A stretch of DNA of 64,000 nt, taken from the NCBI RefSeq assembly GCF_963678975.1, contig NC_089274.1:7656143-7720142 (forward strand), given 5' to 3'. Shown here one piece after another: positions 1,072-57,030 of the stretch; the stretch's first letter is position 1, and every line of letters begins with the position of its first letter. This stretch comes from Dysidea avara (lineage: Eukaryota; Porifera; Demospongiae; Dictyoceratida; Dysideidae). Both the position numbers and the translations under genes were made by a program. The notes under the pieces were generated by a model. The model was not told the DNA's origin, made no database searches, and was given only the letters and a program-made list of their open reading frames with translations.

Positions 1072-13684
<12,613 letters not shown>

Positions 13685-46097: not shown

Positions 46098-49000
46098 ACG
46101 CATGCACTCACACACACTATAGATTACATGCACACATTACACTACACACACAAACACAAGTAAAGTAAAGCCTTCAGCTACACCTGCCCAGTGAACCAGC
46201 ACTGGGACAGTAAGGACACCTGTGCACTACTCAAGTACTCTTAAGTCAATGGAGGCAAATTCTCCTGGGGCAGGATTAATACCCCGAAGGAGGCTGTATC
46301 ATGTCTCACAGGTGAATTGTGGACACCCGAAATTCTAACTGAACCTTCAGTTCACCCACTATATATGCGACACACACACACACACGCACACGCACACGCA
46401 CGTACACACACACACACAAACACCAGTACTCCCATACATTATATTATTACACACATTCACCCACATAGTGGGTGAGAATAACAACACACAGATGGCACAC
46501 CATTTTTCACTCTAGTTGGTCTCTGTCATGCTTTGCATGTATGGTACAAATTTCAACATTTCAAAGTATAAGTGACGAAAACTAAATCATCACTGATAAG
46601 ATCCCCTGTGTGTTGTTGAAAATTCTATAAAGTATAGCAAAGTACAAGATGCAATATGAAATGGTAAGAACTAGACTGGTAGTGTAAAATACATATACTT
46701 GATGAAGTGTGTGACAATGTAAAGCACTGTAGAGTGGTCAAGAAGTTAACATGAGACACCAACACCAATTCACACTAAGTAGTTAGAAACAGGAGCTTAT
46801 GAGCTGCTGAAGGTGGCGAGGTGGCGAAGGAGCATGAAACTACTGAGTTCCATGACAATCCAAATTACGTCACTGTGTTTATTTAACGTCACGGATAAAT
46901 GGCACTCCAGCCACACTAATAGTCGAAGAAGAGACGAGTTCACCACCATCAAAGAAGAGAAAGACCTCGAGAAAGACTCAGCCAACTTCACCACCACCAT
47001 GTGTCACTGGTCTTGCACAATTTCGTACACAGCTTCAAATAACGAGATTATACTTTCCTTATATGGAGCGATTGATTTGAATGTGATGGCACCTGGCCAA
47101 ATTTTCCTTATCAGGCAGGCCAAGCACATAGTACTGTGGCATATAACATAGCACAGTTAATTTCATAAAACTAGAAATGATGTAACACACACAGACACAC
47201 ACACATAGGATGTTGGTACTAATCCCCACACAGAAATCCAAAAAGGAAGCACTTAAAATTATAGTTGGAAAGTATAACATCATCACTTAACTTATTAGGC
47301 TTCAGACTACAGATGTACCCAACACATTAAACACACTTGACCATCATATCAAAACACATCACTATAATAACCATGGATGCACCCTATACACACTAAGTTG
47401 TTCTTCAAAAACATCAAACGATAGACCACAACAGTCTTTATTAACAAATGACCAGTTTAATTTCATGCTCATACTGCACCTGTGATTTCTAAAGTTAATC
47501 ATTATTCACAAAAAGTTTTCATTTCATAGAGACAACCATAAGTTTGTTACTCTTATAAGTGTTTAGTAAGATCAGTAATTTAGTATGGCAAATTCTGATG
47601 GCAATACTCTCTAGGGGCCACACTATGTTCTTGATCAACAATGTATTGAAAAGGTCCACCAAAGAGCTACCAGGACACTTGTTGGTTTACAGATATTGGA
47701 CTTACCTACATTATAATGTTGTCGACTAAAATATCATATTATATCATTGTACCGTTTTGTCAACAATGGTATTAATATCAATTTTGCTGACTTTTAAATA
47801 ATTTCCTCGTCACCTCTACTAGAAGGCACATGTTTACACTATTCAAACCTCATACTACCACTAGCCCAATTTTCTTCCTCAGTGAACATTAAATGATTTT
47901 TTAAAAACAACATTGAACTTTGATTTATTAGAAATTTAAATTCAAGTAGGGATCATAGAAATAGAGAGATCACCTATACCTGGGGCTATGGTCAAAGTAA
48001 AGTGGTTTCAGCCAGAATTACAAATCACTATGGGGAGTGCCTCTGCAGTCAATTCACCCACTACAGAAAATGGGAGTGTATAAACAGTGGAATGGAATAC
48101 TGGAATGGTGGAATACTGGAATGGTGGAATGGATTTTTTTAAAGTTCAATATCATTTTTACATCCAAATAAGTACAACTCCTCCCCTTATGAGCAAATTA
48201 ATAGGATTCCCCTTGAAGTCAACATACTTTTCCTCACCACAACACTTGTATGACTTATAACTCAATACTTTATTACTTGTGTGAAACTAACTGTGGTTCA
48301 GTTCAGTGTGCAACATGGCACTGCCATGATGAGCTTTGGCTTAAATTTTGTTTTCTGACATAATTGTGGAAAAGGCTCATTGTAAATGCTTACAAGATAG
48401 TCGCATTTCACTTTTCCCAATGATTTTCGTTTAGGCTCCTAGGTTAGTGGTAAACACCTCGTACAGGCTCTGCCTTCTGTATTCGCCCTCCAGTGCCTAA
48501 CTGGTAAAGTTGATAATAAAATGAACACTTTATTGTACAGTGAATGTGCTTTTACAATGCATTCATGTAATCAGCTAGCTACCTAACTTTTTATCATTTG
48601 GGGGAACAAGGGTTAAGTCTGGAGTCTTCTTGGTATTCCCAATAAACTGTTATTGTGCATGTTCATAACTGACTTTACAGTACATTACATTAGTAAATTT
48701 TGTCTATGGTGAGGTGAATTATGCTAAATAAGCTGACTTCAAGGGAAATTCTATTTATTTGCTTACATAAGGGGAGGAGTTGTACTTATTTGGATGTAAA
48801 AAATGATATTGAACTTTAAAAAATTCCATTCCACCATTCCAGTATTCCACCATTCCAGTATTCCATTCCACTGTTTATACACTCCCATAAATACAGACAA
48901 TACTGTAATGGTACAAGCCTGAAGCCAGATATATGTGGAGATGCGCTACCTGCGAATCAACATTTATGGTGCAGTGGAGAAAGAAATGGGACACAAAGGA

Positions 49001-53743: not shown

Positions 53744-53914
53744 CACTTGTTACACATGTTTGATTCTTACACTATGATCTTTCTAAAATTCTTTAAAAGC
53801 ACTAAAAGGTTCCTTTACGACGATTAATCTACAATTTTCAGCTAATTCTGTAAAGTAGTTTACCTGGTAAACATAACATCCCATGTGCAAAAAAACACAA
53901 AAAAAAACAACTAC

Positions 53915-54060
53915 TGTATTTACTTGGTTAAACGCTGCGGCTACTATTAGCCTAAGCTCCAAAATTGATGTGGCTACTATTCAAGGGCGGCTACTACTCA
54001 AGGGCGGCATTTATTATACTTGAGCATTTATTACATGTGGCTACTATTTAATCCAAAGCC
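53915..54060. repeat. Left end of the HIRAN/pogo element: 'ggctactatt/caagggcgg' repeats
   Basis: Starts 'tactgtatttacttggtt' and then repeats 'ggctactatt' or 'ggctactact' four times, twice followed by 'caagggcgg'. Sub-terminal repeats of this kind are typical transposase binding ends. A matching inverted right end was not found near 56.0-56.2 kb. Confidence 0.55.
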
Positions 54061-54183
54061 AAATTTGAAGTACTCTGCCATATGTTTAGCAAATTGTCTT
54101 CTGCACCTACAGTGTGATTTATGATAACCTGTGCCATACAGTTCACAAGGGTGTGCATTAAAATAATTTACGATGGTGTAACG

Positions 54184-54549
54184 ATGGGGGATGCTGTCAC
54201 TTATGAATGTTTCATTGAAGTTGTTGTTAGAAGACATCATGTTTATAAAGCTATATGGAATCCTGTTATAGGTGAAGTGTTGGTATGTGAACAAGAGACT
54301 GGCAATGACGAAGATTCATGTGCAGTAGCAGTCAAGCTGGATGATATTATTGTTGGACATGTCCCACGAGAGATTTCAAGAATATGCTTAGAAAGGTGTG
54401 GGACAATACTGTGTGAAATCACTGGGCACAGACAATACTTTAGAGACTTAGGTTTAGATGTACCATGTATTTTCCACTTTTGGCACCCAGAAAGTGGTAC
54501 AATAGACAAATTGGAAATATTACTGTACAGAGCAATAGGGAAAAATTGA
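54184..54549 (+). CDS. Intact HIRAN-like domain protein, transposon-associated
   Basis: A single-exon frame of 121 codons (142 if the upstream in-frame ATG at 54121 is used). The segment from 'HVYKAIWNPVIGEVL' through 'GNDEDSCAVAV', 'DIIVGHVPREIS' and 'CEITGHRQY' to 'IFHFWHPESG' has the pattern of the HIRAN fold: Y-x2-W-x-P at the start, an Asp-x-Ala-V strand and the 'GHVPR' turn. HIRAN domains in HLTF and Rad5-like helicases bind 3' DNA ends. Here there is no helicase. The ORF lies in a USP40-like intron, antisense to that gene, between transposon-like end repeats and a convergent pogo transposase relic (87 bp between stop codons). The frame has no stop or frameshift, unlike its neighbour. 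Function in the element is not known to me. Confidence 0.7.
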   Translation: MGDAVTYECFIEVVVRRHHVYKAIWNPVIGEVLVCEQETGNDEDSCAVAVKLDDIIVGHVPREISRICLERCGTILCEITGHRQYFRDLGLDVPCIFHFWHPESGTIDKLEILLYRAIGKN

Positions 54550-54635
54550 TTGAAATAATTGAAAATACAGAAATGATAACTTTTACAATTATTCGGTTAG
54601 GAAATGTGTGAGTTAATACAATGTTAATGTACAAG

Positions 54636-55995
54636 CTAGTCTTCGTCAGCAGAAAACTCGCTATCAGTTTCACAATTGGTGTCACCTCCATCAATTACTG
54701 CTTCGTTGTTTTCTAACTCCTCCTCATCTTCTATCAGTATATCTATTTCATCAAATGGATCATCTGTTTCTGTATTCAGTTCTAGAAGCTGCCTTGTACA
54801 GTCTTCAACCCGGGCTCTTGCAGCAGAGGCAACACCATCATCCTGCTGCAGTGTATTTGACTATCCTGTGAGCCACCTATTGGGACAGATATTCCACAAG
54901 CAAGGAATGAATTCTTAATAAGACCTTCACTCAGGCTGTCCCAGGCTTCCTTCAGCCACTGCACACAAAGAAGTTTGCTTGGAGCTCTCATGTTGCCTGG
55001 GAGTAAATGACATTTCACCAGACAAAAGCCACTCCTCAAATTATTTACTCCTGTATGCCTCCTTGAATGGTTTGTTCCAGGAAACATCAGCATGCTTTGT
55101 TAAACCACCAGGCACAACAACCACATCTGATCTTGTTTGTTTCACCTTTGCTTCCACTGAGTCAGTGAGATGACATTTATATGCATCCCACACCAGCATT
55201 CTTCTGTGAAATGACAGTGTTCCCCAAACTTTGTCTACCCAGATTTCTGTTAATTTCTTGTCCATCCAGCCATTTTTACTGTACTCTACAACAAATCCTG
55301 GAAATTTGAGCAGTTGGGGATCCCTTCTGTCCCCTTTGAACACAAGAAAAAGCTTTTATTGCTGTTTGCCATTGCTGCTAACACACCGTAAACTTGGCTT
55401 TGTCGTGACCAGTAGTGAAAATTGGAACTGATTGTGTTCCAGTTTGAGTTACAGTAGTGTTACGAGCCATGTCCATCCAACATGGTGTCTCATCTATGTT
55501 ACCAATGGCTGATAGTTCATAATTGTACTTAAAGAGGAGCTTTCTAGCCTTCATAATGAAACTTACTACCTTGTCAGTCAGCTGAGGTGGTAGCCCTTGT
55601 CCCACAGTTGAAAACCCCCAACGTTTCATAAAATTGCAGAGCCAACCTCTACTGGCCGTAAATGGCTTGTTGTTACTGTTGCCTGGTTCCCCAGGAGTGC
55701 TGCTGTTACTCAACTTGAGGAATTGCCTTAGTAGTGACACGAAGGTTTCGTGACCTCAATCCTTCAATGTATAAAGCCAGTGCTTCTTCAATATCTGGAT
55801 ACTTCACCTTACATCCTCCACCAGCCAGTCTCCTCTTCTTCAAGTTGGTATCTTTTAGACAGTCCTTCTGCAATTTCCATTCTGCACTCCTTTTGTCCAC
55901 TCCAAATTTCCTGATAGCTTGTGCCTTCTGCACTTTCAATTACCTGTAACTTAATGCTACAGTGTAATTTCTTTTCCTTTTGATAGAGCACAGAG
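54636..55995 (-). pseudogene. pogo-type (Tigger/CENP-B-like) DDE transposase, broken
   Basis: Read on the minus strand: an N-terminal helix-turn-helix ('AIRKFGVDKRSAEWKLQK', about 55920-55870), a CENP-B-type second DNA-binding segment ('WLCNFMKRWGFS'), then the DDE_1 domain with catalytic Asp in 'GNIDETPCW', Asp in 'MLVWDAYKCHLT' and a third Asp in 'ADVSWNKPFKEAY'. An acidic tail (DEDE-rich) ends in the stop at 54636. The reading frame breaks at least three times (near 55930, 55730 and 55360) and has in-frame stops near 55040 and 54915, so the protein is dead although all three catalytic positions can still be seen. The C-terminal acidic tail is typical of pogo. Confidence 0.8.
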
Positions 55996-56159
55996 CTTCT
56001 TCCCGTTAATACGCACATGTTGGCTTTTTAGGTCACATGACACTCTACCGTGTGTCTTTATATCATATCACAAGGGGAGGGCTGTGAATGGACCACTGAG
56101 AGTATGGACAAGTGAGCTACCTAAACAAAGATACATACCTGCTATCAAGAACAGCAGGT

Positions 56160-57030
56160 CCAATACTTTTGTGTATAAATGTGTGCATAAGTGCATACAT
56201 GTGGTGTGTATGTTGTTTGCTGATGATGGGTCAGGAATGGAACAGTCAGCTAGAGTACCAGTAGTGACTCTGGATTAACAGTTAGTACTGCTAAAACCAC
56301 ACACATGATTTTAGGAAGAACAGTAGTGGATAGTGACAGGGAATCGACAATGGTGATTTATGTTGTGTAGAAGAATTCCTCTACTTTAGATCCTTCTGGA
56401 CAGATAGATATTGATTTGAGAAGTAGTTTCCCAAGCTTTTGGGGCACTGAAGAAAAAATTTTTTAGAGACATAATTTTACGCTTAAGAGAAGAGTATACC
56501 AGGCTTGAGTGCTGTCTGTTTAGCTATATGGTGCTAAATTCTGGATACCTTTGAAGAAGCACACATGGAAAATGAATATTTTCAGTGCATAAGAGCAATT
56601 TTAGGAATTAAATAGACAGCAATGAATTACATCAGCTGTAGTTAGAGGGAAATAAGGGAATGAAGAATTAATTGATGATACGATCAAGAGGAGAAGACTA
56701 GAATGGCTTGGGCATATTGCACATATGCCTGATCACAAAATTTCCAAGCAAGTATTTTAGACAGTTAAACCAACCTCATCCACAGGGGGAAGATGGAAGG
56801 ATGTGACTAGACAGGACATTGGTGTTGATGAAGATCAATGGTATGATGAAGCTGTGACATCTACAGTAGACTGGAGAACATTATATAGAAGAATAGCTGA
56901 TGGAACCTCTAGTGGACAAGCAGCTGAGTTGCCACAAACTGAGATCTGTAAACACATGATTTTTCTTAGACCAAAGACAAGCATCCTGGCTAGTAACAAA
57001 AAATGTACCCTCATATACAACTCAATCTAA
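56160..57030 (+). pseudogene. LINE reverse-transcriptase 3' half, decayed
   Basis: A plus-strand reading with stops and frame changes gives 'MLFADDGSG' (the YADD-type active-site block, Y replaced by F), then 'MNIFQCIRAILGIK', 'RRRLEWLGHIAHMPDHKI' and 'GGRWKDVTRQDIG...QWYDEA', in the order found at the C-terminus of many animal LINEs. The last segment is still open for 75 codons. It abuts the pogo relic on the right and may have removed its right end. Confidence 0.75.

Follow-up and report, generated by a model that had tools for sequence, protein, structure and literature searches.

A two-gene pogo-type element in the window

We analysed a 64-kb stretch of the genome of the sponge Dysidea avara (G000:C3:7656143-7720142), hereafter the window, in which positions 53912-55989 hold a decayed copy of a pogo-type DNA transposon with two genes, a HIRAN-like open reading frame (ORF) and, on the other strand, a broken transposase. 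The family to which this copy belongs is called el1. A first-pass annotation, made from the letters of the window alone, had delimited the element as 53915-55995; the borders given here come from a blastn alignment to a copy elsewhere in the genome (L013, an element of 2304 bp), with which the window copy shares 87.4% identity. The alignment is single and continuous, indels included, and extends over 2174 columns from position 1 to position 2149 of the L013 element, leaving the right end of the window copy truncated by 155 bp. The left terminal inverted repeat (53912-53938, plus strand) matches the L013 repeat at 25 of its 27 bases and starts TACTGTA, the first two bases, TA, being the target duplication; a right terminal repeat was searched for in the window copy and none was found. 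Positions 56200-56910, adjoining the truncated right end, resemble by eye a decayed LINE-type ORF for reverse transcriptase, of which they would form the C-terminal end.

The sub-terminal repeats that had been noticed at 53915-54060 correspond to four GCGGCTACTATT-like repeats on the plus strand (53937-54048), which start at 53937, 53970, 53987 and 54037; when up to two mismatches are allowed, the motif has one further match elsewhere in the 64-kb window. Similar motifs are present at both ends of the L013 and L012 elements, with GCGGCNACTATT-like sub-terminal repeats at both ends of the former, and the GCGGCTACTATT-like repeats are possibly binding sites for the transposase. The HIRAN-like ORF is uninterrupted, as first reported, from the ATG at 54184 to the stop codon at 54549 on the plus strand, and encodes 121 aa; relative to L013 it has twice lost 9 bp without a change of frame and has gained 1 bp near its end. 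Its first 93 bp (54184-54276) are retained, wholly or partly, in short copies at other places of the genome that have an internal deletion. The Passer-like pogo transposase occupies 54636-55996 on the minus strand, tail to tail with the HIRAN ORF as had been described, with 86 nt between the convergent stop codons (54550-54635) and not the 87 bp first given. It has suffered seven frameshifting indels in its aligned part and is read in three minus-strand pieces (55996-55721, 55737-55381 and 55436-54636), in which Pfam recovers DDE_1 (E 1.4e-8) and HTH_Tnp_Tc5, the latter divided between two frames (E 2.6e-5 and 0.0037). At the cut-off used for the randomly drawn HIRAN places described below, no transposase or Ulp1 match lies in the window outside the el1 copy, and Rfam gave no matches in the window at gathering scores.

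Both genes move within one pair of terminal repeats

A DNA search of the genome (550.8 Mb in 108 contigs) with the window HIRAN ORF gave 37 matches. Four of the places found, L010-L013, are distributed over three contigs, are 96.8-98.8% identical in their main aligned pieces, and have the same ends, a 27-bp inverted repeat beginning TACCGTATTTACTTGG, with no duplication seen beyond TA. The L013 element, flanked by these 27-bp repeats at a TA site, carries both genes in open form, tail to tail: a 128-aa HIRAN-like protein and a 472-aa transposase, with 82 nt between the stop codons. Among L010-L015, the HIRAN frame is broken only in L014, and the full-length transposase is open only in L013. 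L014 and L015 lie on contig C8, about 89 kb apart, and share the sequence beside both of their ends; they thus represent one insertion that was later duplicated. Two further copies (L016 and L017), which are about 75% identical and decayed, also contain both genes.

Twenty other loci (L018-L027 and L034-L043) are short copies of about 0.5 kb that have all undergone nearly the same internal deletion, the left part running to about position 366 and the right part resuming at about 2171. They lack a transposase, keep at most 93 bp of the HIRAN ORF start (most of them about the first 93 bp), and end as el1 does; in three of the first ten (L021, L022 and L025) the scan gave no left repeat. As a control, the 84,220 bases of these 20 loci contained no transposase or Ulp1 match at the same cut-off. 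The short loci are non-autonomous copies of el1. Where readable, the HIRAN start of most of them encodes Tyr-Lys-Ala, as it does in the window copy, and not the Tyr-Lys-Thr of the young copies.

The weak HIRAN matches of the same search led to a second family, el2 (L031 and L032; the L031 element has 2256 bp), whose terminal repeat of 28 bp, beginning TACCGTAGAGTCTGG, is perfect in L032. Identity to the el1 copies is 48-62% for the HIRAN of this family, whereas its transposase shares 26-27% with that of L013; the two genes are again tail to tail. In two more families, el3 (L051, L052 and L053; 3084 bp, 44-bp repeats) and el4 (L055 and L056; 3121 bp, repeats of about 42 bp), the copies are 99.7-99.8% and 98.7% identical, respectively, and lie in different flanks; their HIRAN frames continue into an Ulp1-like protease, giving 381 and 428 aa when counted from the first ATG, and the transposase frame of el3 has 498 aa in L051 and is shorter in L052. 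Finally, perfect 24-bp repeats at L063 enclose two open frames, one of 133 aa for HIRAN and one of 467 aa for the transposase. The left terminal repeats begin TACCGTA, at TA sites, in all six families whose repeats were read. L030 and L033 contain decayed remnants of HIRAN, of an Ulp1-like part and of a transposase, arranged in this order. At L033, an ORF that by eye resembles the start of a THAP zinc-finger protein lies beside this remnant, from position 4631; much of the sequence beyond it is masked.

HIRAN and transposase are therefore enclosed by one repeat pair and one target duplication in five families (el1, el2, el3, el4 and L063), as shown by copies in different flanks for the first four and by a single copy for L063, and together form one two-gene cut-and-paste unit. 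The near identity of the copies within el3 and within el4 indicates that this branch of pogo elements has been active recently.

HIRAN and transposase are found together across the genome

A protein search for HIRAN gave 1161 candidates, the best 150 of which were scored; all were significant, the weakest having an E value of 1.8e-21. The open frames around these best 150 of the 1161 matches had up to 170 aa in 53 cases, 171-300 aa in 38 and more than 300 aa in 59, and most of the matches were without internal stops. A transposase lay downstream on the other strand at all eight HIRAN places picked by hand (L044-L051). From the 129 others among the best 150, 16 places were drawn at random, and the first six were read: each had a tail-to-tail transposase and an Ulp1-like match, with the Ulp1 part, which is SUMO-protease-like, either following HIRAN or joined to it. 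Altogether, 31 of 32 full HIRAN-seeded places had a tail-to-tail transposase. These comprise the window, L010-L017, L029-L033, L044-L053 and L055-L062 (L054 is a flank piece of L051), leaving out the 20 short-copy loci as well as L063 and L064, which were found from the transposase side. They are not independent: a family may be represented by several of its copies, and L052, L053, L055 and L056 were selected precisely because they are such copies. The remaining place, L029, is decayed; HIRAN was seen there and no transposase.

The reverse search, with the el1 transposase, gave 726 candidates, of which 91 were scored, yielding 94 matches that merged into 79 places. At least 35 of these 79 have a listed HIRAN within 5 kb, in a tail-to-tail arrangement in all 35 cases. 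In a control in which the positions were shifted six times, with a 6-kb window either way and any orientation allowed, a listed HIRAN was near one of 474 places (Fisher p 3e-32). The HIRAN list used here consisted of the best 150 of the 1161 candidates plus two from the DNA search, and 35 of 79 is therefore a lower bound. Two of the 44 transposase places without a listed HIRAN were read. One of them, L063, carries the open HIRAN described above, and belongs to a group of transposases at 42-44% identity, none of which had a listed HIRAN. At the other, L064 (C9:12027303; G000:C9:12025400-12027350), the approximately 1.6 kb next to the 3' end of the transposase gave no match to HIRAN or Ulp1. This place counts against a general pairing, although the distance between HIRAN and the transposase match reaches 1.8 kb in the listed pairs, so that a HIRAN may lie beyond the stretch scanned at L064. 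In view of L064, many but probably not all of the pogo-like transposases of this genome have the partner.

The first-pass annotation had proposed that pogo elements carry HIRAN partners, and had allowed that the link would be a chance neighbourhood if HIRAN copies turned up without pogo and with ends of their own. The partnership is borne out by the counts from both sides, and the copies without a transposase, apart from L029, are short loci that carry el1 ends. That the two genes are chance neighbours, or that HIRAN was inserted later into a dead pogo copy, might be suggested by the missing right repeat in the window and by a HIRAN frame that is open while the transposase is broken. The enclosure of both genes in one repeat pair in five families, the tail-to-tail order in 35 of 35 pairs and the genome-wide counts speak so strongly against this explanation, which would need the copies to be assembly errors, that we give it practically no credence. 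For el1 in particular, later insertion was rejected, since its copies hold both genes inside one repeat pair.

The pairing is old and both genes have probably been under constraint

Distances and unrooted trees of the two proteins were compared in a set of 16 families or copies. The distances of HIRAN correlate with those of the transposase (Mantel r 0.579; none of 5000 permutations), and the members without a protease beside HIRAN (L013, L044, L032, L045 and L046) form one group in each of the two trees (support 0.975 and 1.000) and branch internally in the same way, although the inner node with L032 is weak in both (0.494 and 0.378). The sister pairs L051 and L057, L049 and L060, and L048 and L062 are likewise found in both trees. 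Three placements speak against strict co-inheritance: L047 is placed next to the HIRAN-only group by the HIRAN tree (0.864) but is grouped with L050 by the transposase tree (0.962), the transposase tree alone unites L059 with L048 and L062 (0.960), and L055 changes place with weak support. Across families, HIRAN sequences share on average 52% identity and transposases 35%, the latter value falling to about 23% between the two groups. The fact that such diverged branches keep the partner, its place and its orientation, with covarying distances, indicates that the pairing is old.

The differences between the window copy and L013 amount to 19 of 369 sites in HIRAN (5.1%), 94 of 1348 in the transposase (7.0%) and 57 of 337 in non-coding sequence (16.9%), and L014 and L015 show the same order relative to L013. 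A comparison of dN/dS across copies, which had been suggested for the HIRAN ORF, gave 0.39-0.68 for HIRAN and 0.35-0.54 for the transposase when the four young copies were set against the window, L014 and L015. These estimates rest on few changes and on decayed copies, which weakens them; among the four young copies the changes are too few for use, with transposase ratios from 0.43 to 2.57. We read the values as a sign that both genes were constrained while their lineages were active. It might be argued that HIRAN is a captured fragment of a host gene carried as a useless passenger, as transposons do capture host fragments and the short copies keep at most 93 bp of the ORF. We regard this as very improbable, given that HIRAN substitutions are below the non-coding level, that the distances of the two genes are correlated, and that most of the best 150 of 1161 HIRAN matches are without stops.

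The annotation had offered later insertion, selection or chance for the HIRAN ORF having stayed open beside a decayed transposase. Of these, chance is retained: the seven frameshifting indels in 1.35 kb of aligned transposase translate into about two expected in the window HIRAN ORF, and one was seen, near its end. Chance therefore suffices to explain the open frame, and selection on the ORF after insertion was rejected.

The small protein as a HIRAN domain

HLTF is a fork-remodelling enzyme whose HIRAN domain binds DNA 3' ends. The Pfam HIRAN profile (PF08797) has a curated cut-off of 24.7 bits, which is exceeded by L050 (30.4), L048 (26.3) and L055 (25.9). L051 (21.2), L013 (20.8; E 3.4e-4), L031 (20.7), L032 (20.5) and L010 (20.2) remain below it, and the lowest scores are those of the window ORF (15; E 0.023), L015 (13.6) and L049 (13.5). 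The window ORF being under the cut-off, its HIRAN label needed relatives, three of which pass. When a profile of ten family members was run against 177,635 Protein Data Bank (PDB) sequences, the first five places were all taken by HLTF HIRAN (E 0.029-0.047), over profile positions 13-120 of 126. A Trp, an Asn, an Asp and the His of a VGH motif are invariant in all ten members; the Asn, Asp and His coincide with HLTF in the alignment, and the Trp aligns beside the first HLTF pocket tyrosine.

Several observations weigh against this assignment or against a function like that of HLTF. The el1 HIRAN, at 20.8 bits, is itself under the cut-off; the HLTF matches are weak, and unrelated proteins follow them at E 0.092 (a TetR regulator) and 0.56; and a single-sequence AlphaFold model of the window ORF was useless (mean pLDDT 36.7). 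In addition, the tyrosines Y72 and Y93, which border the DNA pocket of HLTF according to PMC4666394, are not conserved in the element HIRAN when counted on the alignment. PDB searches with one HIRAN sequence or with a narrow alignment (A1) returned nothing, and the same was true of the transposase query; NCBIfam had no family for the HIRAN of L013 or of the window. Taking these points together with the family profile, we have good confidence that the element protein is a HIRAN domain, and binding of 3' DNA ends by it is plausible. The altered pocket residues and the low scores to HLTF would also fit a module for protein-protein contacts or chromatin targeting that has lost end binding and directs the element, or its protease, to sites of DNA damage or replication. 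The invariance of the Asn, Asp and His, and of the Trp beside the first pocket tyrosine, in all ten members argues the other way, and we consider such a module distinctly unlikely.

The Ulp1-like part was found in 11 of the 16 families or copies, in none of the five members of the HIRAN-only group, and not in L063. Peptidase_C48 scored above its cut-off of 20.7 bits in L051 (25.6), L048 (24.5) and L055 (21.8) and below it in L050 (15.1), and did not match L049 or L030. His, Asp, Gln and Cys, which we take to be the Ulp1 catalytic triad plus the Gln, are conserved in all five sequences aligned. Transposons are subject to SUMO-linked silencing, and a SUMO-protease-like ORF in 11 of 16 families or copies and at six of six random places could mean that HIRAN, or HIRAN-Ulp1, is a regulator or counter-defence factor that tunes the level of the transposase or the SUMO-dependent silencing by the host, rather than a helper in cutting; the divergent pocket tyrosines would be in keeping with this. 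Such a role is possible but, in our judgement, unlikely, since no protease accompanies HIRAN in the HIRAN-only branch, where el1 and L063 have both genes open, and since the Asn, Asp and His pattern of HIRAN is kept.

Relationship to known elements

Pogo and Tc1/mariner elements are usually described with the transposase as their sole gene. The L013 transposase scores above the cut-offs for BrkDBD, HTH_Tnp_Tc5 and DDE_1 (E 5.3e-23 for the last). DDE_1 is also present in the transposases of el2, L045, L051 and L055, and HTH_Tnp_Tc5 in that of el2; BrkDBD and HTH_Tnp_Tc5 were not found in the scanned frames of L051, L055 and L045, the last two of which are partial. The last two catalytic Asp residues were located in el1 and el2, where the second and third catalytic Asp are 35 and 36 residues apart, respectively. 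TA target duplication and terminal inverted repeats were found, with no shared flank duplication beyond TA by eye. On these sequence characters, the elements belong to the pogo superfamily.

In the literature, pogo elements are given one or two ORFs, encoding transposases (PMC7386202), and Passer is described as a single-ORF element (PMC9976928). By the description in these sources, el1 resembles Passer in its BrkDBD, HTH_Tnp_Tc5 and DDE_1 domains, the 35-residue Asp-Asp spacing, the 472-aa transposase, the TA duplication and the short terminal repeats. Unlike Passer as described there, the present elements have a tail-to-tail HIRAN gene inside the repeats, in many copies with an Ulp1-like protease; the spacing is 36 residues in el2, and the repeats of el3 and el4 are longer. 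The likeness of the partner to HIRAN of HLTF and Rad5 lies in the domain pattern over most of its length and in the best PDB matches, but the element HIRAN is transposon-borne, free-standing or joined to a protease, has no helicase, and does not conserve the pocket tyrosines.

Some DNA transposons, such as Ginger and plant Mutator-like elements, carry Ulp1-like proteases. The elements studied here have in common with Ginger that they are DNA transposons with an Ulp1-type protease, and differ from it in the transposase superfamily; by term counts, HIRAN does not occur in the Ginger paper (PMC2836005). The ciliate Tec and TBE elements (PMC7325037) offer another parallel: they are related elements of the Tc1/mariner group and encode further ORFs in addition to the transposase. 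No transposon with a HIRAN gene was found described in the open-licence literature searched, and HIRAN does not appear in the main text of PMC7325037, PMC7386202 and PMC9976928, which survey pogo elements.

A possible role at the DNA ends

Cleavage by transposases of the Tc1/mariner type releases the 3' ends of the element and leaves behind a gap that has overhangs. The reading that we favour, and consider rather probable, is that of a two-gene pogo element whose HIRAN protein works in trans as an accessory factor binding 3' ends, assisted in one branch by Ulp1. The transposase would leave free 3' ends both on the transposon that it excises and at the gap in the donor, and HIRAN, acting in trans, would bind such ends by analogy with HLTF HIRAN. 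Once bound, it may protect the ends, help to clear the transposase after cutting, or steer the repair of the gap, while the Ulp1 part may remove SUMO from the transposase or from repair factors at the same ends. HLTF reportedly disrupts Cas9-DNA complexes after cutting (PMC11237066), which is a suggestive parallel.

A broader version, which we put forward tentatively and hold to be somewhat short of an even chance, is that a large, old and recently active pogo branch has permanently incorporated a 3'-end-binding domain and a SUMO protease into its transposition machinery, and so controls its own DNA ends. If true, a large pogo branch would itself handle the DNA ends, repair or silencing connected with its transposition, which would also account for the great number of HIRAN ORFs in one genome (at least 150 copies, perhaps over a thousand). 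The copies in which both genes are open make the partnership testable at the bench.

Other observations

Two candidate relatives were rejected. The ORF of L001 (Ruminococcus) is longer and by eye radical-SAM-like, and its 23-residue match is due to chance; the phage helicase L028 has no Pfam HIRAN over the matched stretch, and was also taken as a chance match. In viral contigs, 15 candidate stretches included no relatives. Elsewhere in the window, short TGGAATGG arrays are present at 48093-48132 and 48826-48865, in opposite orientation and about 700 bp apart, and possibly mark the two ends of a further short mobile element.
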